Positions 11,173 through 52,248 of a DNA stretch of 64,000 nt are shown here, in pieces. The position numbers were made by a program, and so were the translations under genes. The DNA comes from Kingella negevensis (GTDB taxonomy: Bacteria > Pseudomonadota > Gammaproteobacteria > Burkholderiales > Neisseriaceae): the NCBI RefSeq assembly GCF_030177895.1, contig NZ_CP123448.1, forward strand, positions 1,240,001 to 1,304,000, given 5' to 3'. The notes under the pieces were generated by a model, which ran no database searches, had not been told where the DNA came from, and saw only the letters and a list, made by a program, of their open reading frames with translations. Every line of letters begins with the position of its first letter. Position 1 is the first letter of the stretch.

Positions 11173-11258
11173 GCCGACATGGTGAAATTGGTAGACACGC
11201 CATCTTGAGGGGGTGGTGAGCCTAGCTCGTGCGAGTTCAAGTCTCGCTGTCGGCACCA
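11173..11258 (+). tRNA. tRNA-Leu (anticodon GAG)
   Basis: Acceptor arms GCCGACA / TGTCGGC, D arm GGTGAAATTGGTAGACACG, anticodon loop CTTGAGG, a long variable arm typical of class II tRNA, T arm with GTTCAAGTC, and an encoded CCA. The 3' end serves as the attachment site of the integrated element that follows. Confidence 0.93.
11239..11251 (+). other. attL core in tRNA-Leu
   Basis: AAGTCTCGCTGTC within the T arm and acceptor of the tRNA. It is repeated at 19417-19429. With flanking bases the match extends to 17 of 19. Confidence 0.88.
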
Positions 11259-11264
11259 AATCAT

Positions 11265-11297
11265 AAAAAACCGCCTAATTTTCAGGCGGTTTTTTTA
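11265..11297 (+). terminator. Terminator after tRNA-Leu
   Basis: AAAAAACCGCCT / AGGCGGTTTTTT around AATTTTC. It isolates the secG/tRNA transcription from the integrase. Confidence 0.88.
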
Positions 11298-11429
11298 CGT
11301 TTATTCGTGTGTATTGCCGTGTACTAAATCCTGATGAATAAAGGCTTTCAGAGAAATTGACTAATTACTTTTATGTTTGTCTTTCGTGTATTGCCGTGTA
11401 TTGCCGTATCATTGAATAAACGTAAAAAA

Positions 11430-11480
11430 GGGGGTATTCTTGGGGGCATCTAAAAAATACCCCTTTTAAAATACCCCCAA
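11430..11480. promoter_or_regulatory. Integrase arm-type sites and integrase promoter region
   Basis: GGGGGTATTCTTGGGGGCAT (11430-11449) followed by the same motif in reverse (AATACCCC and AATACCCCC) up to the integrase ATG. The same GGGGGTATT pair recurs at the other end of the element (19341-19360). Upstream, 11308-11410 carries repeated GTGTATTGCCGTGTA units. The pattern fits arm binding sites of a tyrosine integrase that also autoregulates. Confidence 0.6.
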
Positions 11481-12683
11481 ATGAAGCTAAACGACCAGCA
11501 AATAAAGAAAGCAAAGCCCAAAGAGAAACCGTACAAGCTAGCCGACGGCAAAGGCTTGTATTTACTTATTACACCAACAGGCGGCAAACTATGGCGGCTT
11601 AAGTATCGCGTGGACGGCAAAGAGAAAACGCTATCAATAGGCGCATATCCAGCCATTACGTTATCAGAAGCAAGGGGACAAGTAGAAGCCGCCCGAAAAC
11701 AGAAAGCGAGCGGTATAGACCCCAGCCAAGCCAAACAGCAAGCCAAAGCAGAACGACAAGCCGCCTTGCTTAACACCTTTCAAGCAATCGCATTGCAATG
11801 GCACACAGCCAACTTGCACCGTTGGAAACCACACAACGCAGAGCGGATTATTGAGCAACTGAAAAAAGACGTTTTCCCACACATAGGCAGCAAGCAGCTT
11901 AATGATGTGAGCGTGGCAGAAGTGAAAGCCGTATTGTTGCGCGTGATAGAACAGCGCAAAGCCCCAGCAACCGCCGAAAAAATACGGCAATGGATTAGCG
12001 CAATATACGCATATGCCGCAATTATGGAACTGACCGATAGAAATCCAGCTTTCGCGCTGCGTGGCACACTAGAAAAAGGGAAAACCAGCCATTTGCCAGC
12101 CCTACCCCAAACAGAGCTAGAAACCTTTTACAGCCGCTTAATGGCGGCGGATATGGCAGAACAAAACAGAATAGCCATTTTGCTGCTTATGTTGCTTTTT
12201 CCACGCAGTACAGAATTCAGGGGCGGCAAATGGGAAGAAATAGACTTCACAGCAAAAACGTGGATTATTCCAGCCGAGCGCATGAAGCACGAAAAAAATA
12301 AACCCAAACCACCGCATACAATACCACTTTCAACGTGGGCAATTGAGTTATTGACCGAGCTACACAGCATAACAGGCAAAACGCCGTATTTATTCCCCAG
12401 CCGCACCGCCCAAAATGGCGTAATTAGCGAAACCACACTAAACAACATCATTAAAAAAATGGGCTACAACGGCATAGCCACACCGCACGGCTTTCGCAGC
12501 CTTGCCAGCAGCGTGTTAAACGAAAAAGGATTTAACCCCGATGCCATAGAACGGCAATTAGCCCATATCCCAAACGACAAAATCCGCGCCGCCTACAACC
12601 GCGCTGAATACATGGCAGAACGCGCCGAATTTATGCAGTGGTATAGCGATTTTTTGCAACAACATTACAGAAACGCCATTTAG
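11481..12683 (+). CDS. Tyrosine integrase, P4/DUF4102 type
   Basis: 400 residues. An N-terminal DUF4102 arm-binding domain (about 1-90) has KLADGKGLYLLITPTGGKLW and ALSIGAYP-like patterns. A core-binding SAM-like domain follows (about 95-180). The catalytic domain carries Arg in PRSTEFRGGKW, the HGFRSLASS box and the nucleophile Tyr in RAAYNRAEYMAER. It integrates the element at the 3' end of tRNA-Leu. It starts next to the attachment site, as in P4-type islands. Confidence 0.95.
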   Translation: MKLNDQQIKKAKPKEKPYKLADGKGLYLLITPTGGKLWRLKYRVDGKEKTLSIGAYPAITLSEARGQVEAARKQKASGIDPSQAKQQAKAERQAALLNTFQAIALQWHTANLHRWKPHNAERIIEQLKKDVFPHIGSKQLNDVSVAEVKAVLLRVIEQRKAPATAEKIRQWISAIYAYAAIMELTDRNPAFALRGTLEKGKTSHLPALPQTELETFYSRLMAADMAEQNRIAILLLMLLFPRSTEFRGGKWEEIDFTAKTWIIPAERMKHEKNKPKPPHTIPLSTWAIELLTELHSITGKTPYLFPSRTAQNGVISETTLNNIIKKMGYNGIATPHGFRSLASSVLNEKGFNPDAIERQLAHIPNDKIRAAYNRAEYMAERAEFMQWYSDFLQQHYRNAI

Positions 12684-12691
12684 GCAGCCTG

Positions 12692-12727
12692 AAAAAAAGC
12701 CCACTAAATAAACTTAGTGGGCTTTTT
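12692..12727 (+). terminator. Terminator after the integrase
   Basis: AAAGCCCACTAA / TTAGTGGGCTTTTT. The following 12728-13029 (about 300 bases) is AT-rich and holds the promoter region of the alpA-like operon plus a TTAAAGGCTTTGTTAAAGCCTTAA hairpin near 12965. I see no gene in it. Confidence 0.88.
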
Positions 12728-13029
12728 ACTGCTTAACATTTTTTTATCAAAATTTTCAAAACAGCAGCGGTAAAAAAACTGAACCGCTATTTTTTTCATA
12801 ATTACCTGTTTTAACAAACAAAATCAATTTCATTTTTGCAAGGTCGTTTCACAGGGTGCAATAACTGTTAAAACTGTTGATTTTTGAAATAACGTTTCAC
12901 TTTCAACATCTTAACCATCGAAACAAATTCAGCTATTCTTTAAACCAATTTTTTAACACGCATTAAAGGCTTTGTTAAAGCCTTAAATCCATAATCCCCC
13001 ACACCAAGCAACGTAAGGACGTGTACTAA

Positions 13030-13242
13030 ATGAACCAAGTTTTAAGAGTGAAACAAGTAGCCGAATGTTTGGGGATTAGCGTGAATAGCGTTTGGAAAAA
13101 GTGCAACGCCAAAAGCCATTTATACGACCCCGATTTTCCCCAGCCGTTCAAAGTTTCAGCCAACGCAACAGGTTGGCTTGCAAGTGAAATTCATCAATTC
13201 ATTCAACTGAAAGCAGACCAAAGAAAGGCAGCAAAACCATGA
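13030..13242 (+). CDS. AlpA-like DNA-binding regulator
   Basis: 70 residues. MerR-like winged HTH of the AlpA family: VKQVAECLGISVNSVWKK recognition region, then FPQPFKVSANATGWLASEI, the typical wing and helix. Such proteins in satellites control integrase or excision genes. The stop overlaps the start of the next gene by 4 bases. It is the first gene of the operon. Confidence 0.82.
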   Translation: MNQVLRVKQVAECLGISVNSVWKKCNAKSHLYDPDFPQPFKVSANATGWLASEIHQFIQLKADQRKAAKP

Positions 13243-13712
13243 AACAACACAAAACCTTAACCACCGCATTAACCGCCCTTGCCAAACTAGAAAAACGCAA
13301 AGCAGAGCTAGAAAACAAACATTGCGCCAAAGTAGCAGAACTGGAAAACAAACACGCCGCCAGTATTGAACCGCTTGAAGCTGAAATGAACACCATTCGC
13401 ACCGCTATTGCCGACTATGCCAACGCACACCGCGAAGAATTGACCGAAAACGGCAAAGTGAAAAGCGTAAAAATCGGTTCAGGCTGCCTGAAATGGCAAA
13501 AGAACCGCGCCAAAGTAGAAATTACAGGCGATACAGCTGCCATTATTGCTGCACTGAAACGCCGCAAGCTGAATCATTTTATCCGCACTCGTGAAGAATT
13601 GGACAAAACTGCCATTCTGAAAGAACCCACCGCTATTAAGCGCCCTATTGACGGATTAACCATTATTCAAGGCGGCGCAAGTGAAACTTTAACGATTGAT
13701 ACAGGGGTTTAA
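13239..13712 (+). CDS. Host-nuclease inhibitor Gam-like protein (Mu type)
   Basis: 157 residues. An N-terminal coiled coil (about 5-65, Lys/Glu-rich) is followed by the Gam-type strand region SVKIGSGCLKWQKNRAKVEI and a domain with FIRTREELDKTAILKEP. Mu Gam binds DNA ends and blocks RecBCD-type exonucleases. That fits an element replicating in a host that has recC (47760). Overlaps alpA by 4 bases and ends 2 bases before the mor-like gene. Confidence 0.82.
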   Translation: MKQHKTLTTALTALAKLEKRKAELENKHCAKVAELENKHAASIEPLEAEMNTIRTAIADYANAHREELTENGKVKSVKIGSGCLKWQKNRAKVEITGDTAAIIAALKRRKLNHFIRTREELDKTAILKEPTAIKRPIDGLTIIQGGASETLTIDTGV

Positions 13713-13714
13713 AC

Positions 13715-14026
13715 ATGGGAACGATTGCAAGTGATGAAGTTTTAGCTGTGATTGAAGAAAGTGTAAGCCACACTTTAGCAGAGCGTGGATTGCCCCCTAA
13801 TATCGTAGCCGCCGCCGCGTTATCCGTAGCAAACAAAATCAATGAAACCTTTGCAGGGCAACTGGTTTACTTCAAAACAGGCGCGAAAAATAACGCGGAA
13901 GAACGACGGTTAGCCTTGATTGCCGACTTTGAAACAGGGAGCTATTCACACGGCGAATTAGCCAAAAAACACCGCATTTCTTTACAACGTGTTTACGCCA
14001 TTTTGAAACAAAATAACAAGGATTAA
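13715..14026 (+). CDS. Mor transcription activator family protein
   Basis: 103 residues. N-terminal helical dimerisation part, then GGQ-like AGQLVYF strand, and a C-terminal HTH (SHGELAKKHRISLQRVYAILK) characteristic of Mu Mor/C. In Mu, Mor activates middle genes and C activates late genes. Here it could switch on the satellite's own genes or act on a Mu-like helper's late promoters. Both are inferences. Confidence 0.82.
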   Translation: MGTIASDEVLAVIEESVSHTLAERGLPPNIVAAAALSVANKINETFAGQLVYFKTGAKNNAEERRLALIADFETGSYSHGELAKKHRISLQRVYAILKQNNKD

Positions 14027-14031
14027 AAAAC

Positions 14032-14727
14032 ATGGATTTAGAACTCAAACGTTTTCAGTTTTTCCGTGCAGGAACGCATAAAAGTTCAAACGGCATGATT
14101 AAAACCTACACAGATAGCGATTTGCAAAAAGTAGCAGACGAATACAACCAGCGCACTGAAAACCGCGCACCGCTTTACCTTTACCACCCAGCGCAAACAG
14201 CACAACACACAGGCGAGCCGTTAGGTTTAGTGAACAAAGTAGAGCTTTCAAACGGCAAGTTATACGCCCATGCCTACGTTACGCCCAAATTGCGCGATTT
14301 AGTACGCAAAGGCGCATTTAGAGCCGTTTCAGCAGGTTTTAAAATTCTCAAAGACGGCTTTAATTTAGACCACATCGCCTTTTTGAACAATCCAGCCGTT
14401 AAAAATATGGAAGCGCTCAATTTTTCAGAACACAAGGATTTAATTATGTTTTCCAGCCCATTAAATACCGTAGATTACAGCAATGACAGCGAAAGCCTAC
14501 ACGCCGCCGCATTAGCACACCAAGCCCAACACGGCAGCAAATACATTGACGCGGTGCGCGCCCTATTGCGTGAACAAGACCGCGCAAACTTTGCCGAAAG
14601 CGATACCGAAGACCAAGACCCAAACAATCACAAATTACACCGTGAAATTTTGGATTACCAAAGCCAATACGGCGGTACTTACGAAAACGCATTAGCCACC
14701 GTTCAACGAATGAAAGCATTTGCATAA
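14032..14727 (+). CDS. Mu I-like (prohead protease/scaffold-related) protein
   Basis: 231 residues. Residues 1-140 resemble the protease part of Mu I proteins: RAPLYLYHPAQTAQHTGEPLG, a strand-rich YAHAYVTPKLRDLV, FRAVSAGFKIL, and HIAFLNNPAVKNM. The C-terminal part has two copies of a helix repeat (LHAAALAHQAQHGSKYIDAV and LHREILDYQSQYGGTYENAL). It is shorter than a full I protein, and no capsid gene accompanies it. It may redirect helper capsid assembly, but that is inference. Confidence 0.65.
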   Translation: MDLELKRFQFFRAGTHKSSNGMIKTYTDSDLQKVADEYNQRTENRAPLYLYHPAQTAQHTGEPLGLVNKVELSNGKLYAHAYVTPKLRDLVRKGAFRAVSAGFKILKDGFNLDHIAFLNNPAVKNMEALNFSEHKDLIMFSSPLNTVDYSNDSESLHAAALAHQAQHGSKYIDAVRALLREQDRANFAESDTEDQDPNNHKLHREILDYQSQYGGTYENALATVQRMKAFA

Positions 14728-14739
14728 GGAAAAAGCACC

Positions 14740-15345
14740 ATGACAAAACCTAAAATTATTCAATCTTTGCTAGCACAAGTTTCAAAAGAATTGAACACAT
14801 TAACCACGCAGCGCAATGAAACAGAAAACGAAATTGTAAAATTAAATCAAGAAATTAACCGCTTAAATAATATGCCAGTTTGCCGCGAAGATTTTGGCGT
14901 GTTGCTGAAAGAAAGCATTGAAGAATACGGCAAAAACAGCGAATTAAAACTAATCAAAAGTTTAATGCACGAGCGTGAACAAGGAGCAATTTTCCCAGCC
15001 ATTTTGCCAGCTAATAAACGCAGTTTTAAAGAGTTAGATGATTGTTTTAAATGGCTATTACACGGATTTAACTTTGAATACAATCCATTTTCACAATCAC
15101 AATTCAAAGATGACGGCATTGATTTAATGGTGTGGCTATTCCCTGACCGTATTCACGAGAAAGTAATGTCAGCGATTGACAAACACCTAGGCACAAAATG
15201 GGGCAATGACGACCTACCACGCCTAGCAGAACGCCGCGAACGCATAGCCGATTTAACAGCAGAGCTAGCAGAGCAGCAAACCAAACTAAACGAAATCAAC
15301 GCCGCCATTGCAGAAATTAGCCGCCTGACTGTAGAAAATTCTTGA
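14740..15345 (+). CDS. Hypothetical protein with coiled-coil ends
   Basis: 201 residues, not recognised. Residues 1-50 and 160-200 predict coiled coils (Glu/Lys/Leu/Asn heptads such as NEIVKLNQEINRLNN and LTAELAEQQTKLNEIN). The middle is a compact region with FKWLLHGFNFEY and DLMVWLFPDRIHEKV. No signal peptide or membrane segment. It is the last gene of the alpA-gam-mor operon, and the next promoter lies over its stop codon. Confidence 0.7.
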   Translation: MTKPKIIQSLLAQVSKELNTLTTQRNETENEIVKLNQEINRLNNMPVCREDFGVLLKESIEEYGKNSELKLIKSLMHEREQGAIFPAILPANKRSFKELDDCFKWLLHGFNFEYNPFSQSQFKDDGIDLMVWLFPDRIHEKVMSAIDKHLGTKWGNDDLPRLAERRERIADLTAELAEQQTKLNEINAAIAEISRLTVENS

Positions 15346-15369
15346 CAATAACACAAACAAGGGTAAATA
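15342..15369 (+). promoter_or_regulatory. Promoter of the immunity RNA / replication operon
   Basis: TTGACA at 15342-15347, a 16-base spacer, then TAAATA at 15364-15369. It overlaps the end of the preceding gene and faces the immunity RNA and primase genes. AAACAAGGGTAA (15355-15366) is repeated inverted as TTACCCTTGTTT at 15491-15502. Confidence 0.65.
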
Positions 15370-15402
15370 ATGGCAGCGTTGCTTTCAATCAAGCAGCCAG
15401 CC

Positions 15403-15423
15403 GTGAGAAGCTGAATACAATAG
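15403..15423 (+). promoter_or_regulatory. Upstream target site (seqA-like) of the CI/c4 RNA
   Basis: GTGAGAA at 15403-15409 and ACAATAG at 15417-15423 repeat, in the same order, the two segments of the downstream target (GTGAGAA at 15607, CACAATAGAA at 15632). Both are complementary to the RNA at 15520-15597. P4 has the same arrangement, where pairing of CI RNA with seqA promotes early termination. Confidence 0.65.
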
Positions 15424-15429
15424 GCAAAT

Positions 15430-15488
15430 AGCCGCCAACGAGCAACAGAGCTACACGATAGCCCGATTGCTAAGCGGTTTTTATTTTG
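15430..15488 (+). terminator. Leader terminator upstream of the CI/c4 RNA
   Basis: Nested stems CCGC/GCGG, AGCAA/TTGCT and GCTA/TAGC followed by TTTTTATTTT. It is placed between the upstream target site and the antisense RNA, where P4-type immunity ends the leader transcript. Confidence 0.55.
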
Positions 15489-15519
15489 CATTACCCTTGT
15501 TTTACCTTTTTCTGACTAT

Positions 15520-15597
15520 GGTTGGCAGGGGGCAAAGCGGACTTTTGTCCACTGGTTCTATTGTGCCAGTTTCTCACTCTTTGCCCTTTTGCCAGCC
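15520..15597 (+). ncRNA. P4 CI / phage c4-type antisense immunity RNA
   Basis: A three-way junction can be drawn directly. The outer stem is GGTTGGC..GGGGCAAAG with CTTTGCCC..GCCAGCC. Inner hairpin 1 is GGAC-TTTT-GTCC (15539-15550). Inner hairpin 2 is ACTGG-TTCTATTGTG-CCAGT (15551-15570). The 10-base loop of hairpin 2 is perfectly complementary to CACAATAGAA (15632-15641), beside the ribosome site of the next gene. The single-strand TTCTCAC (15571-15577) is complementary to GTGAGAA (15607-15613). Two inner hairpins plus two target-pairing segments is the known c4/CI plan. It would repress the replication genes and give superinfection immunity. Confidence 0.8.
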
Positions 15598-15602
15598 GCC
15601 CA

Positions 15603-15645
15603 CCGCGTGAGAACGGAAAGCGGCATTAAACCACAATAGAAAAGG
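15603..15645 (+). promoter_or_regulatory. Downstream target site (seqC-like) and ribosome site of the next gene
   Basis: GTGAGAA (15607-15613) and CACAATAGAA (15632-15641) pair with the CI/c4 RNA. The second segment runs into the AAAAGG ribosome site (15640-15645) 7 bases before the ATG at 15653. Pairing would hide the site. This decides the start of the following gene. Confidence 0.7.
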
Positions 15646-15652
15646 TATCAAT

Positions 15653-15898
15653 ATGACAACTTCTAAACAGGCACAAACGCCGATTTCTTCTGATATTCCC
15701 CAATGTTTTCATAACGGTAAAAAAGACATTTACGAACTCAATGAAACAGCTTATCTGCAAATTGAGCGCGTAGCCGATATGTTGGCAGCTTTGGCATGTT
15801 TTTCACACGGCAACGACAAACGTGAAGAACAGCTTTTCAATACGCTGCATTTTGCCGCCACTTTGTTAGAACAGTCATTGAACTGGAATTGTAAATAA
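15653..15898 (+). CDS. Small satellite protein under c4/CI control
   Basis: 81 residues, not recognised. Soluble and mostly helical, with a short polar N-terminus, then IPQCFHNGKKDIYELNETAY and two helices. Its position, directly after the immunity RNA and before the primase, matches the place of kil or antirepressor-type genes in P4 and P1-type immunity regions. That position is the only hint of function. Confidence 0.7.
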   Translation: MTTSKQAQTPISSDIPQCFHNGKKDIYELNETAYLQIERVADMLAALACFSHGNDKREEQLFNTLHFAATLLEQSLNWNCK

Positions 15899-16034
15899 TT
15901 TTCAGGCTGCAAACCCATTGCTAATGTGCAATCGGTTTCAGGCTGCCTGAAATCGTTTCTAACCACGTTCTGACCGACTAGAAACCGCATTGCAATACGC
16001 GGCAATGTGTTTGCCTATCCAAAGGACAAACGCA

Positions 16035-17102
16035 ATGAAAACGCAAAATAACCGCCCTAGCGTTCAAGACGTGAAAGCGGCAGCGCATGACCGTTGGCAC
16101 GGTATTCATGCCAGTTTAGGCATTGACCCCAAATTACTGAATGGCAAGCACCAGTCTTGCCCCAGTTGCGGCGGCAAAGACCGTTTCAGATACACCGACT
16201 TTCAAGGGAACGGCGGCTTTATCTGTAATCACTGCACACCCGAAAGCGGCAGCGGCTTTGATTTGATTATGCTAGTCTTTGGCTGCACGTTTAGCGAAAG
16301 CGTGGCGCGTGTGGCAAATGTGTTAGGCATGAATAACGCCACACACGCGCCTTTATCACGCACCAAAAGGCAGCCTGAAACAACACCACCGCCCAAAGAC
16401 CAACAAGCCGCCTTATTGCGCTTGTGGCAGCAAACCAAGCCATTAACCGCCAATGACCCAGCAAGCCTTTACTTGCAACAGCGCGGCTTATCGCCAAACG
16501 TGCAAACGCTGAAAAATATCCGCTTTGCTATGTTGGAATATTGGGCGCAATCCATTGAAAACCGCCCCTTATTGTTAGGCGTGTTGCCTTGCATGATTGG
16601 CGCAATCACAACGCCAAACGGCGAACTGCAAGGCGTACACCTAACCTATTTACAGGGTAATCATGCGAACCAATGGCACAAATTGAATGCGCTACACCCC
16701 CAAACCAACGAACCACTACCAGCTAAAAAGATGAAAAGCCGCTTTTCAGGCAGCCTGAAAGGCGCGGCGGTTCACTTATCCACACCCAACCCACAAGGGC
16801 AGCTAATTGTAGCGGAAGGCATAGAAACCGCCCTTGCAGCGCGTGAATTGTTTGACTTACCCAGCGCGGCGGCGTTGAGCTGCTACGGCTTGCAATATTT
16901 TCAACCACCGCCCAGCGTGAAAGAGCTGTTTATCGTAGCGGATAACGATCCAAACGGCGCAGGTATCAAAGCCGCTCAAAGCCTAGCATTAAGCGCAGTC
17001 AAAAACCACATTCAGGCGCATATATGGCAGCCTGAAAACATCGGATTTGACGCATTGGACGAATTAAACAGGATTAGACAAAATGGCAATATTGAGCATT
17101 AA
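16035..17102 (+). CDS. P4-type primase: zinc finger plus Toprim domain
   Basis: 355 residues from the ATG at 16035 with AAAGGA upstream. Near residues 35-65 a zinc-binding motif CPSCGGKDRFR..FICNHC typical of P4 alpha/TOPRIM primases. Near 265-330 a Toprim domain with LIVAEGIETALAA and IVADNDPNGAG (Glu and DxD metal ligands). It would make primers for replication of the element. P4 fuses primase, helicase and origin binding in one alpha protein. Here the helicase part is a separate gene that overlaps by 20 bases. Confidence 0.9.
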   Translation: MKTQNNRPSVQDVKAAAHDRWHGIHASLGIDPKLLNGKHQSCPSCGGKDRFRYTDFQGNGGFICNHCTPESGSGFDLIMLVFGCTFSESVARVANVLGMNNATHAPLSRTKRQPETTPPPKDQQAALLRLWQQTKPLTANDPASLYLQQRGLSPNVQTLKNIRFAMLEYWAQSIENRPLLLGVLPCMIGAITTPNGELQGVHLTYLQGNHANQWHKLNALHPQTNEPLPAKKMKSRFSGSLKGAAVHLSTPNPQGQLIVAEGIETALAARELFDLPSAAALSCYGLQYFQPPPSVKELFIVADNDPNGAGIKAAQSLALSAVKNHIQAHIWQPENIGFDALDELNRIRQNGNIEH

Positions 17103-18789
17103 CCAATTTGAAGAAGTGAGCCTCAAACCGCGCTACAAATGCGATAAAACAGGCGTGTTTTACATTGCCGTAGAAACAGGCAAAGACGGCGAAACATACG
17201 AAAAACCGCCCTTACGCCTTTCAGATAGCATTGAACTGATTGGGCGCGGACGTGATACAGACGGCAACCATTACCGCATTATTGAATGGCGCGATTGCCT
17301 GACCAAGCAAACCAAAACCGCCGCCCTACCTATGGCAGAAATTGGGCAAAACTGGCAAGCCCTGTTAAAAAATGGCATTACCGTACATTCAGGGCGGCGC
17401 AAACGCGAATTGCTGGCAGATTACCTACAAACAAACGGATTACACACGCCCTACACCGTTACCGAAAAATGTGGCTGGCAGAACGGCACGTATGTATTGC
17501 CAAACGGCGAAATTATCCACAACCCAAACAGCAAAAAAGCAGAGCGGATTATCTACAACGGCGACACCAGCCAAAACACCGCCTACACCGTTTCAGGCAG
17601 CCTGAAAGAATGGCAAGACAACGTAGCACAATACGCGAGCGGAAACAGCCGCCTACTGTTAGCCATTGGAACAGCCCTAGCCGCCCCATTGTTGGCAATG
17701 GTAGGCGAGCAGAACGGCGGCTTTCATATCTACGGCGATAGTTCGGACGGCAAAACCACCGCCGCCCTAGTAGCGTTAAGCGTGTTTGGTAATCCACAAG
17801 CCCTAAAAATGACGTGGCGTGGTACAGATTTAGGCTTTTCCAATGCCGCCCTAGCCCGAAATGACGGTTTACTGGTTCTTGATGAAATAGGCGAAGCACA
17901 CCCCAAAACCATTAGCAAAACCGCGTATAGCGTGATTAACGGCAAAAGCAAAATTCAGGGCGCAAAAGACGGCAGCAACAGAACAAGCCAAGAATGGCGC
18001 GTATTACTGTTTTCAACAGGCGAATACAGCCTAAACGCCTACATGAAAGCCGCCGCCGAAAAATGGGAAGCAGGGCAAGCCGTAAGGCTGCCAAGCATAC
18101 CAGCCGCCAAACAATACGGCATTTACGAACACTTGCACGATTTCAGCAACGGCGCGGATTTATCGGAACACCTACAAACTGCCACCGCCAAGCAATACGG
18201 AACGGCAGGGCGCGAATGGATTAAGCAATTAGCACAAATCCCACCTGAACGCATACAAGCCGCGCAAAACGCCTTTATGCAATCCTTACCCAGCCTAGAC
18301 GGACAAGCGCGGCGCGTAGCCAAGCGATTTGCCCTAGTAGCCGCCGCATTGGAACTCTCAGGCAGCATTACAGGATTAGCGCAAGGCGTTGGCATGGTAG
18401 GGATTAAGCAATGCTTTGACGACTGGTTAGCACTCAATGGCGTAGGCAAACAAGAAGACCGCCAAATCATAGAAAACGCCATTACCTTTATGCAGCTTTA
18501 CGCACATTCGCCGCGTTTTGCCAGTTGGAACAGCGAAATAACCAGCAACGAACACGCAGGATATAGAAAAACATCACAAACAGAGCTAGACGAATATTGG
18601 GTTATTCCCAAAGTATTTGAAGATGAAATCTTGCAAGGGAAAGACGTACTGAAAGGCTGTCTAGTTTTACACGGCATAGGTTGGCTAAAAAAGAACGGAA
18701 AAAGATGGAAAATGCAACGCTTTCAAAATGGGCGGTTCTATGTGCTTTCTAACTCAATTCCGCCCGAAAACCCCGACAATTTAGAATAA
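17083..18789 (+). CDS. DUF927 ATPase/helicase-like protein
   Basis: 568 residues. The DUF927 region begins about residue 120 (EKCGWQNGTYVLPNGEII). Walker A GDSSDGKTTAAL lies near 218-229, Walker B LLVLDEIGEA near 263-272, and sensor-like LLFSTGEYSLNAYM follows. The C-terminal 100 residues (YWVIPKVFEDEILQGKDV) may be a winged DNA-binding part. DUF927 proteins stand next to Toprim primases in satellites and act as the replicative helicase. It overlaps the primase gene and is followed by iterons, its probable origin. Confidence 0.88.
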   Translation: MAILSINQFEEVSLKPRYKCDKTGVFYIAVETGKDGETYEKPPLRLSDSIELIGRGRDTDGNHYRIIEWRDCLTKQTKTAALPMAEIGQNWQALLKNGITVHSGRRKRELLADYLQTNGLHTPYTVTEKCGWQNGTYVLPNGEIIHNPNSKKAERIIYNGDTSQNTAYTVSGSLKEWQDNVAQYASGNSRLLLAIGTALAAPLLAMVGEQNGGFHIYGDSSDGKTTAALVALSVFGNPQALKMTWRGTDLGFSNAALARNDGLLVLDEIGEAHPKTISKTAYSVINGKSKIQGAKDGSNRTSQEWRVLLFSTGEYSLNAYMKAAAEKWEAGQAVRLPSIPAAKQYGIYEHLHDFSNGADLSEHLQTATAKQYGTAGREWIKQLAQIPPERIQAAQNAFMQSLPSLDGQARRVAKRFALVAAALELSGSITGLAQGVGMVGIKQCFDDWLALNGVGKQEDRQIIENAITFMQLYAHSPRFASWNSEITSNEHAGYRKTSQTELDEYWVIPKVFEDEILQGKDVLKGCLVLHGIGWLKKNGKRWKMQRFQNGRFYVLSNSIPPENPDNLE

Positions 18790-18800
18790 CTCAAACCAAC

Positions 18801-18836
18801 AAGGCGCAAATAATCAATGATTTGCGCCTTTTTTTA
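18801..18836 (+). terminator. Terminator of the satellite replication operon
   Basis: AAGGCGCAAA / TTTGCGCCTT around TAATCAATGA, followed by a T run. Confidence 0.9.
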
Positions 18837-18891
18837 TTTTCAGGCAGCCTAAAAAAATGCACTCTGTCAAAAAGTGAAAAATGCGTTTTTA

Positions 18892-19129
18892 GTGGTTATA
18901 GTGGTTATTAACACTTTATCTTATTGAAAGAAAAAAAAATAATTCATAACCACTGTGGTTAGAATAGTGGTTATTGAGTGGTTATGCAGTGGTTATTAAA
19001 TTAAAATCAACAGCTTACAATGTAAAGAAAACACCCCATAACCACCGCATAACCATTAACATATCTTTACTGGTTATGAACTTCATCATAATAAACAACA
19101 AGATAGGTCATTCATAACCACATAACCAC
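18892..19129. repeat. GTGGTTAT iteron array, probable replication origin of the satellite
   Basis: Nine exact copies of GTGGTTAT: plus strand at 18892, 18901, 18967, 18978 and 18989; minus strand (ATAACCAC) at 18946, 19038, 19114 and 19122. Near copies lie at 18955, 19049 and 19070. The spacing of 9-11 bases in the tight cluster is about one helical turn. The AT-rich sequence between copies fits an origin. The 720 bases from 18790 to 19511 hold no gene. Confidence 0.72.
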
Positions 19130-19340
19130 TAAAAAACCGTTTTTTGCTTAACTTGTACGTTGAAAATATACTTCTTTGAGCTTTGGCAGCCTGAAATTTT
19201 GCCCTATGGCAGAAAAACACCATTCAGGCTGCTAATGCCGTAATATGCAATAAAATACAAATGGGACTATTCGGAATAAAGCGGTATTAAGTGGGATTTA
19301 TGCAACATGGCAGCAAAAAATAGCCTGACTTAAATGCAAT

Positions 19341-19360
19341 GGGGGTATTTTTGGGGGTAT
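19341..19360. promoter_or_regulatory. Right-end integrase arm sites
   Basis: GGGGGTATTTTTGGGGGTAT, the same pair as at 11430-11449 beside attL. It lies about 57 bases inside attR. Confidence 0.6.
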
Positions 19361-19416
19361 TTTACAAACTTTGAGAAATAATATTTATTTTAAACAATAG
19401 ATTAACTATTAAATTT

Positions 19417-19429
19417 AAGTCTCGCTGTC
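19417..19429 (+). other. attR core
   Basis: AAGTCTCGCTGTC, identical to the attL core in tRNA-Leu. It marks the right end of the satellite, 82 bases before the end of orn. Confidence 0.85.
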
Positions 19430-19470
19430 TGCTTATTTTTAAGCAGCTTTTTTAAAAATACATTCCACCA

Positions 19471-19505
19471 AAAAGCAGCCTGAAAACATTTTCAGGCTGC
19501 TTTTT
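19471..19505 (-). terminator. DUS-pair terminator after orn
   Basis: AAAAGCAGCCTGAAAA / TTTTCAGGCTGCTTTT. It ends the minus-strand orn transcript. Confidence 0.85.
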
Positions 19506-19511
19506 ATGCTT

Positions 19512-20060
19512 TTATTCAGGCAATTTCAAAAAAGTTTCACGATAATGGCGCAATTCCTCAATGCTCTCCAAAATATCGTCTAACGCCTTATGCGAACCCT
19601 TTTTCACAATCCCCTTGTAAACCGCAGGATTCCAGCGTCGTGCCAACTCTTTCAGCGTGGAAACATCCAAATTACGATAATGGAAAAACGCCTCCAAACG
19701 CGGCATATATTTTACCATAAAACGGCGGTCTTGATGGATTGTGTTGCCGCACATCGGCGTGGCTTTTTCAGGCAGCCATTCGCCCATAAAATCCAATAAT
19801 TTCTGCTCAACGTCCGTTTCCGTGTACTTCGATTGTTTCACACGTTCAGTCAAACCCGTACGCGCGTGGGTTGTTGTACACCACTCGTCCATTGCGTTCA
19901 GCACTTCATCGCTCTGATGAATCGCAAAAACTTCCGATTGCGCCAACACATTCAAATCCTTGTCCGTGATAATCATCGCCACTTCAATGATTTTATCCGT
20001 TTCAGGGTTCAGCCCCGTCATTTCCATGTCTAGCCAACACAAATTATTCTGGTCTTTCAT
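19512..20060 (-). CDS. orn: Oligoribonuclease
   Basis: 182 residues, the usual length. DEDDh exonuclease motifs are all present: WLDMEMTGL (Asp, Glu), [13 protein letters not shown] (Asp), and the final SHKALDDI with the catalytic His and Asp. It degrades 2-5-mer RNAs, including pGpG from c-di-GMP breakdown. Divergent from aroA. The 180 bases between them hold an inverted DUS pair (20097-20133). Confidence 0.96.
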
Positions 20061-23991: not shown

Positions 23992-24842
23992 GGGGCTATT
24001 GACAATTCAAAAAAAGAGGCAAAGGATTTAAGATATTGTTTCCACACAACCATCCTAAACCTTTGCCATGTCCCGAAACACGCTTACAAATGAAACATGG
24101 TCAAGACTGTTGCCCATTTTGAAACAGCTTGGCATTTATCGCAAGAAAAATTTACGCAAAACAGTAGAAGGTATCCTGTTTCGCTTACGTACAGGCTGCC
24201 AATGGGCTGATATACCTAGTTATTTTGGTAAAGCAAACAGCCTTTACCAAAGTTTCAATCGCTGGTCTAAACGCGGTATTTTTACCAAATTATTTAAACA
24301 TTTGGCAGATACACCCGATATGGAATGGGTCTTTATGGACGGTAGTCATATCCGTGTTCATCAACACGGCATGGGTAAAAAATCCATTGTGCATCAAGCT
24401 GTCGGTAAGAGTATCGGAGGTCATACGTCTAAAATTCATTTAGCGGTTGATGCTTGTGGTAATCCAATTGAATTTATGATTACAGCTGGTAATGTAAATG
24501 AGATTGTTGTTGCGCCTGATTTATTGGCACAATTGGACTTAAGTGATAATGAAACCGTGTGTGCTGATAGGGGTTTTGACAGTGATACTTTTCGTCGGTT
24601 AATTCATTCTAAACAAAGTAAAGCCAATATTCCATATAAGAAAAATAGAGAACATCTTAATGTGGACACAGATTGGTATTTATATAAAATCAGGCACTTG
24701 GTAGAAAATGCTTTTGCACGATTAAAGCATTTTCGTGCGCTGGCAACACGGTACGATAAATTAAAACGTAATTATGAAAGTACCGTGTCATTAGCTTGTG
24801 CTTTGATTTGGTTGAAATTATAGCTAAAATGTCATTAGCCCC
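23992..24842 (+). mobile_element. IS5-family insertion sequence, copy 1
   Basis: 851 bp. Terminal inverted repeats start GGGGCTAWTGACA (left GGGGCTATTGACA, right GGGGCTAATGACA). Both sides carry TA, consistent with a TA duplication. The transposase is intact. The element sits between a toxin tail and its immunity gene. A second copy in the other orientation is at 26890-27740. Confidence 0.9.
24068..24823 (+). CDS. IS5-family transposase
   Basis: 251 residues in one frame. N-terminal DUF4096-type domain with TGCQWADIPSYFGKANSLYQSF; catalytic DDE with VFMDGSHIRVHQH (first Asp), ADRGFDSD (second Asp) and a C-terminal helix RHLVENAFARLKHFR (Glu). Identical in sequence to the copy at 26909-27664, so transposition was recent. 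Confidence 0.93.
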   Translation: MSRNTLTNETWSRLLPILKQLGIYRKKNLRKTVEGILFRLRTGCQWADIPSYFGKANSLYQSFNRWSKRGIFTKLFKHLADTPDMEWVFMDGSHIRVHQHGMGKKSIVHQAVGKSIGGHTSKIHLAVDACGNPIEFMITAGNVNEIVVAPDLLAQLDLSDNETVCADRGFDSDTFRRLIHSKQSKANIPYKKNREHLNVDTDWYLYKIRHLVENAFARLKHFRALATRYDKLKRNYESTVSLACALIWLKL

Positions 24843-26889: not shown

Positions 26890-27740
26890 GGGGCTAATGA
26901 CATTTTAGCTATAATTTCAACCAAATCAAAGCACAAGCTAATGACACGGTACTTTCATAATTACGTTTTAATTTATCGTACCGTGTTGCCAGCGCACGAA
27001 AATGCTTTAATCGTGCAAAAGCATTTTCTACCAAGTGCCTGATTTTATATAAATACCAATCTGTGTCCACATTAAGATGTTCTCTATTTTTCTTATATGG
27101 AATATTGGCTTTACTTTGTTTAGAATGAATTAACCGACGAAAAGTATCACTGTCAAAACCCCTATCAGCACACACGGTTTCATTATCACTTAAGTCCAAT
27201 TGTGCCAATAAATCAGGCGCAACAACAATCTCATTTACATTACCAGCTGTAATCATAAATTCAATTGGATTACCACAAGCATCAACCGCTAAATGAATTT
27301 TAGACGTATGACCTCCGATACTCTTACCGACAGCTTGATGCACAATGGATTTTTTACCCATGCCGTGTTGATGAACACGGATATGACTACCGTCCATAAA
27401 GACCCATTCCATATCGGGTGTATCTGCCAAATGTTTAAATAATTTGGTAAAAATACCGCGTTTAGACCAGCGATTGAAACTTTGGTAAAGGCTGTTTGCT
27501 TTACCAAAATAACTAGGTATATCAGCCCATTGGCAGCCTGTACGTAAGCGAAACAGGATACCTTCTACTGTTTTGCGTAAATTTTTCTTGCGATAAATGC
27601 CAAGCTGTTTCAAAATAGGCAACAGTCTTGACCATGTTTCATTTGTAAGCGTGTTTCGGGACATGGCAAAGGTTTAGGATGGTTGTATGGAAACAATATC
27701 TTAAATCCTTTGCCTCTTTTTTTGAATTGTCAATAGCCCC
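26890..27740 (-). mobile_element. IS5-family insertion sequence, copy 2
   Basis: 851 bp, reverse of copy 1, flanked by TA on both sides. It cuts the 5' part of the REase-like toxin module. What lies beyond it is an IS1 remnant, so the missing toxin part is gone. Confidence 0.9.
26909..27664 (-). CDS. IS5-family transposase
   Basis: 251 residues, the same protein as at 24068-24823, with an intact DDE triad. The inverted pair (23992-27740) could flip or delete the 2-kb toxin module between them. Confidence 0.93.
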   Translation of the reverse strand: MSRNTLTNETWSRLLPILKQLGIYRKKNLRKTVEGILFRLRTGCQWADIPSYFGKANSLYQSFNRWSKRGIFTKLFKHLADTPDMEWVFMDGSHIRVHQHGMGKKSIVHQAVGKSIGGHTSKIHLAVDACGNPIEFMITAGNVNEIVVAPDLLAQLDLSDNETVCADRGFDSDTFRRLIHSKQSKANIPYKKNREHLNVDTDWYLYKIRHLVENAFARLKHFRALATRYDKLKRNYESTVSLACALIWLKL

Positions 27741-52179: not shown

Positions 52180-52248
52180 AGTTTTCCTTAGTTTTGTTAG
52201 CGCGGGAGGTTTACGAACCGCGTGGTTAATCAAATTGCAGCCTGAAAA

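Follow-up and report, generated by a model that had tools for sequence, protein, structure and literature searches.

The window considered here is a stretch of 64,000 nucleotides from Kingella negevensis (contig NZ_CP123448.1, positions 1,240,001 to 1,304,000), and it contains a satellite-like element of about 8.2 kb (11173-19429) that lies in a tRNA-Leu(gag) gene (11173-11258), as judged from the tRNA, a direct repeat and the gene content. Within this element, a predicted C4-type antisense RNA (15514-15603, + strand, as are all features of the leader and the operon) precedes an operon made up of a small gene for a protein of 81 amino acids (aa; 15653-15898), a DNA primase gene with zinc ribbon and Toprim domains (16035-17102; PF08273 and PF13362) and a gene for a DUF927 replicative helicase (17083-18789; PF06048, E 6.6e-61), all with open reading frames. 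The 81-aa protein matched no Pfam or PHROG family, and its homologues follow the C4 RNA in four satellites of the same gene order, found in four other genomes. A first-pass annotation, made from the letters alone, had proposed that an RNA immunity circuit of the phage P4 and P1 kind stands ahead of a primase operon here, and the Pfam and PHROG matches of the operon proteins agree with that placement.

The RNA and its flanks are linked by two short words. The loop a' of the second hairpin, TTCTATTGTG (15556-15565), which serves as the specificity word, is the full complement of the downstream word a2, CACAATAGAA (15632-15641), and a2 adjoins a Shine-Dalgarno-like AAGG (15642-15645); the joint b', TTCTCAC (15571-15577), which is the second word, is complementary to b2, GTGAGAA (15607-15613). 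Upstream of the C4 RNA, GTGAGAA recurs as b1 (15403-15409) in the loop of a hairpin with a CAGC/GCTG stem (15398-15413), and just past this hairpin lies a1, ACAATAG (15417-15423), complementary to the C4 loop over 7 of its 10 bases, so that b1 and a1 stand in the same order as b2 and a2. The perfect loop complementarity to the ribosome site of the next gene, the pairing of TTCTCAC with GTGAGAA ahead of that site and the repetition of both target words in order at 15403-15423 had all been claimed in the first-pass annotation and are upheld, the last with the a word shortened as described. When the flanks were dinucleotide-shuffled 5,000 times, the 10-base match arose 7 times, the downstream 7-base b match 74 times and both upstream matches jointly 8 times, and all four words together never did. 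Among 99 instances compared, the loop word of the window is not shared by any other, and its joint word is shared by six others.

The best Rfam match of window positions 12000-20000 is C4 (RF01695) at 15514-15603, with 39 bits and an E-value of 8.7e-5 in 8 kb, or 7.2e-4 in 66 kb; it covers positions 1-87 of the 87 in the model, and when all Rfam families were compared it was the sole C4 match in the whole 64 kb at E <= 0.01. This match falls where the first-pass annotation had placed a C4 RNA, yet its score is under the curated cut-off of the family, which is 45 bits. Relatives at the same place exceed this cut-off (L002 with 55.1, L004 with 54.0 and L005 with 47.8 bits). A covariance model of 33 Neisseriaceae C4 RNAs, from which the window was excluded, recovers 15514-15603 at 57.1 bits and E 1.3e-10, and finds nothing besides this site in the 64 kb at E <= 1. 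The predicted fold of 15514-15605 is a three-way junction that has two inner hairpins; its energy is -42.1 kcal/mol (z -5.33), a stability that none of 200 shuffles reached. It agrees with the junction that the first-pass annotation describes at 15520-15597. In addition, GGT at 15520 fits the RNase P site motif of C4 RNAs (GGW); such a motif at the C4 processing position is described in PMC5320573.

Two further features of the leader had been proposed, a TTGACA/TAAATA promoter and a terminator-like structure between the words, and both stand only in part. A predicted sigma-70 promoter is found by promoter scan at 15342-15371, either as TTGACA-18-AATAAT (11 of 12) or as TTGACA-16-TAAATA (9 of 12), but one such site is seen against 0.9 +/- 0.8 expected, so that taken alone it is not above chance. 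Among the 23 loci listed, L009, L014, L021, L022, L049, L033 and L034 have a similar site at -169 to -176 from the C4 RNA, and of these L014, L021, L022 and L049 are relatives of the window with the same gene order; in L016, L024, L027, L011 and L018 no such site was found, and in the other loci it lies at other distances. The terminator-like fold (15424-15489) consists of a 6-pair stem that encloses an internally folded stretch of 38 bases and is followed by a T-rich run (15478-15487); the stem and the run are present, but a strict scan for intrinsic terminators finds none on the + strand there, and this part of the proposal is accordingly held less firmly.

The question of whether such a fold could arise by chance is answered by the relatives. 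RF01695 matches occur in 18 of the 46 genomes of the genus of G001 (13 above the cut-off) and in 39 of the 83 genomes of its family (34 above), and in none of 14 control genomes; these counts are lower bounds, as the stricter filters missed G002, whose C4 RNA was found by another search. The neisserial setting suggested earlier is supported by these relatives, both by C4 RNAs across the family and by primase loci in Neisseria genomes. The 44 Neisseriaceae loci picked by the RF01695 model (L006-L049) and the window all form this type of junction, with the second hairpin shifted in L048. For the helix test, the relatives were aligned by sequence alone (MAFFT), and the pairs were taken from RNAalifold and used unchanged; only 15 were recovered, because the stems vary in length. 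Of the helix cells, 97.4% are paired, whereas shuffles give 80.6% and shifting the partners by one to three columns leaves no more than 53.1%; 10 of the 15 pairs have changed on both sides. The lack of stem covariation in related elements had been named beforehand as grounds for abandoning the RNA; such covariation is seen here, and the covariance search described above recovers the window from its relatives alone. A chance fold with chance complementarity would suit a promoter that by itself is not above expectation, but the Rfam match, the fold z-score, the shuffles, the window-excluded model, the sister changes described below and the helix covariation all speak against it, and covariation rules it out, leaving it a practically negligible probability.

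The strongest evidence comes from sister satellites, in which two-base changes of a word occur in concert in the RNA and at both of its sites. Over the stretch compared, L002 and L012, from two genomes, are distinguished by six bases only: one and the same pair of changes is present in a1, a' and a2, and none of 217 positions beyond the words is altered. Between L004 and L012, each of b1, b' and b2 shows two changed bases, with 5 of 217 changed elsewhere. Both words of L009 and L022 differ at all places, with 3 of 217 differences elsewhere. Between L009 and the window there is a matched one-base change of length, TTCTATGTG with CACATAGAA in the former and TTCTATTGTG with CACAATAGAA in the latter. 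In L003, a2 (CAGTTTGAA) fits the loop TTCGAACTG save for one G-U wobble, which could be an intermediate state of a word change. That the element is dead and its C4 RNA a decayed, inactive remnant would agree with the score under the Rfam cut-off and with the existence elsewhere of orphan C4 copies without downstream targets of their own, such as L019/L020. However, the four words and the stems of the window are intact, its operon frames are open and the length change that separates it from L009 is matched in loop and targets, and we consider decay very unlikely. Of the orphan copies, those of L019/L020 and L026 (L083) are near-identical in two genomes (0.985), and in G043 the orphan lies 670 bp past another C4 copy whose following reading frame is short (46 aa).

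The rates at which words change were compared over all 45 loci and L003, which give 31 pairs more than 88% alike, nine of them satellite pairs and 22 others. In the nine satellite pairs the words differ at 0.147 per site and the remainder at 0.049, so that words change about three times faster, and they are unlike in seven of the nine; in the 22 other pairs the reverse holds (0.028 against 0.074), with unlike words in three. The p-values of this comparison are overstated, because pairs share members and because the satellite label was set by hand, which for L034 and L035 is its only basis. No primase is found in the 3-kb loci of L023, L033, L034 and L035; L023 and L033 do have int, alpA, primase and helicase in their wider loci (L082 and L088, respectively). 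A possible reading is that mobile satellites diversify their words and resident copies retain them. As a general rule, the notion that words always evolve fast was rejected: in a thinned set of 32 pooled pairs more than 88% alike, words differ at 0.046 and the rest at 0.080. A word-rate test on five pairs was set aside, as its pairs had been chosen because their words differ. Outside G079, a genome treated below, 42 different word pairs occur among 54 instances, and pairs of instances share words in 0 of 17 cases within genomes and in 40 of 1,414 between genomes, in a set that leaves out the 11 of the 45 loci whose words were already represented. The idea that co-resident elements never share words was likewise dropped, since 17 pairs prove nothing; in G079, 6 of 946 pairs share both words. 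Two tandem satellites, L003 and L005, lie in one contig of a Neisseria metagenome-assembled genome (66549-83439), with loops TTCGAACTG and TTCGATTTG and identical joints.

These observations lead to the reading we prefer, to which we give a probability of about 0.87: the C4-type RNA, whose a' and b' words are complementary to b1/a1 and b2/a2, likely acts as a processed antisense RNA that silences the operon of small gene, primase and helicase, and would confer superinfection immunity specific to the words. The fold, the words, the helix covariation, the concerted word change in sisters and the layout shared with P4 are seen directly, and on them a course of transcription, processing, termination, action in trans and immunity can be built as follows. 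A single transcript from the promoter near 15342 would bear b1, a1, the C4 hairpins, b2, a2 and the operon. The C4 RNA would be freed by RNase P and other enzymes, as we infer from P1 and P4, and would then pair with b1/a1 and b2/a2 of new transcripts, whether of its own or of an incoming element. Pairing at a2 would mask the ribosome site of the 81-aa gene, and as the transcripts would be left untranslated or would end prematurely, primase and helicase would not be made. An element with different words would escape.

Such a transcript also admits a simpler arrangement, in which the leader is an attenuator acting only in cis on the one transcript, so that there would be neither a free antisense RNA nor immunity. 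The RNA does share one predicted transcript with both of its target pairs, and the covariation of loop and targets requires no action in trans. On the other hand, the RNA is homologous to C4 in Rfam, and its GGT stands where other C4 RNAs are processed (PMC5320573). Furthermore, escape from immunity in trans would explain why words are unlike in seven of the nine close satellite pairs, although these share members, whereas a switch in cis has no need of such change. We therefore regard a purely cis-acting switch as unlikely and retain the antisense RNA acting in trans.

How that RNA would act is suggested by the layout of the 54 instances outside G079 and P4, a set that omits 11 loci with repeated words. 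The word a2 is present in 49 of them, each time with an ATG 5-19 bases further on and AGG, GGA or GAG nearby, and b2 is likewise present in 49. The upstream word b1 is present in 53, although in a few rows the first b1-like match is the TTGACAG of the promoter-like site, and it is surrounded by a stem of at least four pairs in 49 of these 53; a1 lies within 40 bases of b1 in 46 of the 54. By a 6-base rule, 15 of the 54 have incomplete sets, with words missing or shortened. As the downstream pair lies beside the ribosome site, a block of first-gene translation is favoured; early termination as in P4 is in turn suggested by the conservation of the upstream pair and by the operon's role in replication. 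Both may act. A narrower form of the preferred reading, in which the RNA acts in trans mainly in the P1 manner, by a block on first-gene translation, with only a small part left to the upstream pair and the terminator, draws on the Shine-Dalgarno-like purine run that adjoins a2 in 49 of 49 cases, with the ATG following at the distance just given, and on the scarcity of strict terminators, which were detected in just 17 of the 53 b1-bearing instances and not in the window. However, the upstream hairpin and a1 are about as conserved as the downstream pair, the upstream words change in concert with the C4 RNA and the operon, like that of P4, serves replication; this narrower form is possible but, in our view, somewhat doubtful.

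Specificity was evaluated by exchanging RNAs among flanks, using the 34 distinct sets of loop and joint that the 45 loci provide after 11 repeats are dropped. On a locus's own flanks, the mean longest complement is 7.8 bases for the loop downstream, 6.9 for the joint downstream, 6.8 for the loop upstream and 7.0 for the joint upstream, compared with 4.7, 4.4, 4.8 and 4.8 with foreign RNAs, and none of 20,000 permutations reaches any of the four observed sums. By pairing energy, the C4 RNA that best matches a downstream flank is the flank's own in 18 of 34 cases, and the own RNA is among the best three in 25 of 34. Several points weigh against the circuit as we read it. An own RNA that ranks first in only 18 of 34 cases means that the predicted specificity is not absolute. 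The score of the window RNA lies under the Rfam cut-off, its upstream a word is matched over 7 bases and not 10, and no strict terminator is recognised in its leader. Moreover, the Rfam model for the upstream targets, c4-a1b1 (RF03163), has no match in window positions 12000-20000 at E <= 5; the cut-off of this model is 46.7 bits, and P4 itself reaches only 44.1. Finally, since all the words lie on one predicted transcript, pairing in cis only is possible.

The element that carries this leader is bounded by a 13-base direct repeat of the tRNA-Leu 3' end, AAGTCTCGCTGTC, at 11239-11251 and 19417-19429, which are the only two places of this sequence on the + strand. Its further genes, all on the + strand, encode a tyrosine integrase (11481-12683; PF13356, PF22022 and PF00589), an AlpA-type regulator or excisionase (13030-13242; PF05930, E 8.6e-9), a Mu Gam-like protein (13239-13712; PF07352, E 1.1e-24), a Mor-type transcription activator (13715-14026; PF08765, E 5.5e-13) and a 231-aa short relative of the phage head-maturation protease (14032-14727; phrog_976 with E 8.7e-26, and PF10123 with 24 bits under a cut-off of 25.2); a 201-aa protein is encoded between this protease relative and the C4 region. 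Integrase and replication genes are thus present, and among the proteins scanned with Pfam and PHROGs there is no match to a capsid, portal, terminase or tail gene, although the one short protease relative is present; this is the composition of a phage satellite. The ten proteins scanned include no match to psu, sid or delta, the markers of the P4 family, and for this reason we do not place the element among the P4-family satellites. Compared with P4 alpha, the primase shows 28% identity across 82% of the query.

Relatives of the element were found in Neisseria. When genome contigs were searched with the primase, four loci with 41-43% identity turned up in three Neisseria genomes. When 20 relative loci were compared with nine window proteins, all nine were found in the same order in L075, L076, L077 and L080 (in L076 the integrase and the helicase are each in two pieces), and part of the nine, always including integrase and primase, in the eleven loci L002-L005, L078, L079, L081, L082, L086, L087 and L088; none of the nine was matched in L083, L084, L085, L089 and L090. 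In the phage collection, neither the leader (DNA search) nor the 81-aa protein (protein search) had a match, and the primase, searched against viral contigs, hit a single distant locus, L001, for which no C4 RNA is among the matches listed. The Mu-type Gam, Mor and short protease relative (window 13239-14727) are common to L075, L076, L077 and L080, and may serve the use of a Mu-like helper. A full-length Mu-like protease occurs in two of the 11 genomes searched, a third match being the satellite's own, and the protease relative of the window is only remotely like one Mu-like protease (E 0.003). Between integrase and alpA, an Rfam int-alpA RNA scores over its cut-off in L003 (12704-12785) and L002 (2531-2619), and none is listed in window positions 12000-20000 at E <= 5.

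Elsewhere in the window, two open reading frames (ORFs) with identical translations of 251 aa and a transposase-like appearance lie in opposite orientation about 2.1 kb apart (24068-24823 and 26909-27664), and a PreQ1 riboswitch match stands above its cut-off at 52182-52227 (47.7 bits). The uptake-like words GCAGCCTGAA and GCTGCCTGAA occur 115 and 34 times, and GCCGTCTGAA is absent, a profile that suggests a host like Kingella or Simonsiella and not Neisseria proper.

One genome, G079 (2.2 Mb), has 44 C4 copies by the Neisseriaceae model and 41 by the Rfam model, in loci L050-L057 and L059-L074. These copies hold 39 different word pairs if 7 bases are counted as the joint and 40 if 8 are counted; 24 of the copies have downstream targets of their own, and these comprise 22 different word pairs. 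Several copies form tandem arrays with a spacing of about 355 bp, in which the last unit precedes an 84-aa ORF and the upstream units often have no targets of their own. Both words of an orphan copy match the downstream target of another copy in only 2 of 20 cases, and these arrays therefore give no demonstration of targeting in trans. In the short contigs L064, L065, L070 and L071, a C4 copy and a small ORF lie beside polymorphic-toxin-like ORFs, and ORFs in L064 and L071 match the pre-toxin VENN domain (PF04829). It is conceivable, as a tentative extension that is more likely to fail than to hold, that Neisseriaceae C4 RNAs form a programmable RNA compatibility code, with satellite words of 7-10 bases under diversifying selection, altered in step in the RNA and at both of its sites, and the G079 copies as a standing RNA immune repertoire. 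If so, sister satellites would escape each other's immunity, and the G079 repertoire would act against incoming satellites and phages.

A circuit of the P4/P1 type thus precedes the replication genes in a set of Neisseriaceae satellites, some of them with Mu-type genes, and it is the host, the satellite and the allelic richness that are new, the circuit itself being of a known kind. No open-access paper joining C4 antisense RNA and Neisseria was found, and the open-access papers on phage satellites and Neisseria, judged by title, concern other subjects. Because dozens of natural word pairs exist, some in near-identical leaders, the evolution of RNA immunity specificity is directly testable here, including which base changes split one immunity group in two and whether intermediate wobble states exist.

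The CI RNA of P4 and the C4 RNA of P1 are the textbook cases of this circuit, both from enterobacterial phages. Under the same procedure, P4 (NC_001609) gives C4 at 74.9 bits, isrK at 60.8 and c4-a1b1 at the score mentioned above, with own-word matches of 9 and 7 bases downstream and 8 and 7 upstream; its b word is GTGAGAA, identical to that of the window, and its a word overlaps the AGGAGG ahead of an ATG. Weak isrK matches, under the cut-off, also lie upstream of the C4 RNA in L002, L003 and L004. The seqA-CI-seqC plan proposed for the window in the first-pass annotation is therefore the anatomy that P4 displays in the same test, with targets on both sides of the C4 RNA in a primase leader: b1 in a hairpin loop, a1, a T-rich terminator-like stretch, the C4 RNA, b2 and a2 at the ribosome site, in front of the primase. 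The window differs from P4 in its a word, in having primase and helicase as two genes, and in possessing Mu-type Gam, Mor and a short protease relative in place of any match to psu, sid or delta. In P4, the CI RNA pairs with seqA and seqC and transcription ends prematurely, according to PMC4825925.

The C4 RNA of P1 and P7 (RF01695), of a family of processed, stable RNAs about 77 nt long, shares with the window the three-way junction, the a' loop, the b' strand and targets before the first gene, but in the window this gene encodes the 81-aa protein before the primase and not an antirepressor. Some of the Neisseriaceae C4 loci of the set precede genes that, judged by eye, resemble ant. The block that C4 puts on translation at the ribosome site of ant, and the heteroimmunity of P1 and P7, are described in PMC12197685. 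The C4-like small RNAs of Acinetobacter baumannii, of which 21 similar ones occur in one genome, have the same RNA fold with a variable a' loop; their targets are discussed as possibilities in PMC5320573, whereas most RNAs here have a target pair of their own in cis. IsrK/STnc1160 of Gifsy-1, by contrast, controls anrP in a full prophage and not a satellite primase (PMC4825925). Overall, the window holds a P4/P1-type antisense circuit of a known kind in a satellite that, by gene content, does not belong to the P4 family.
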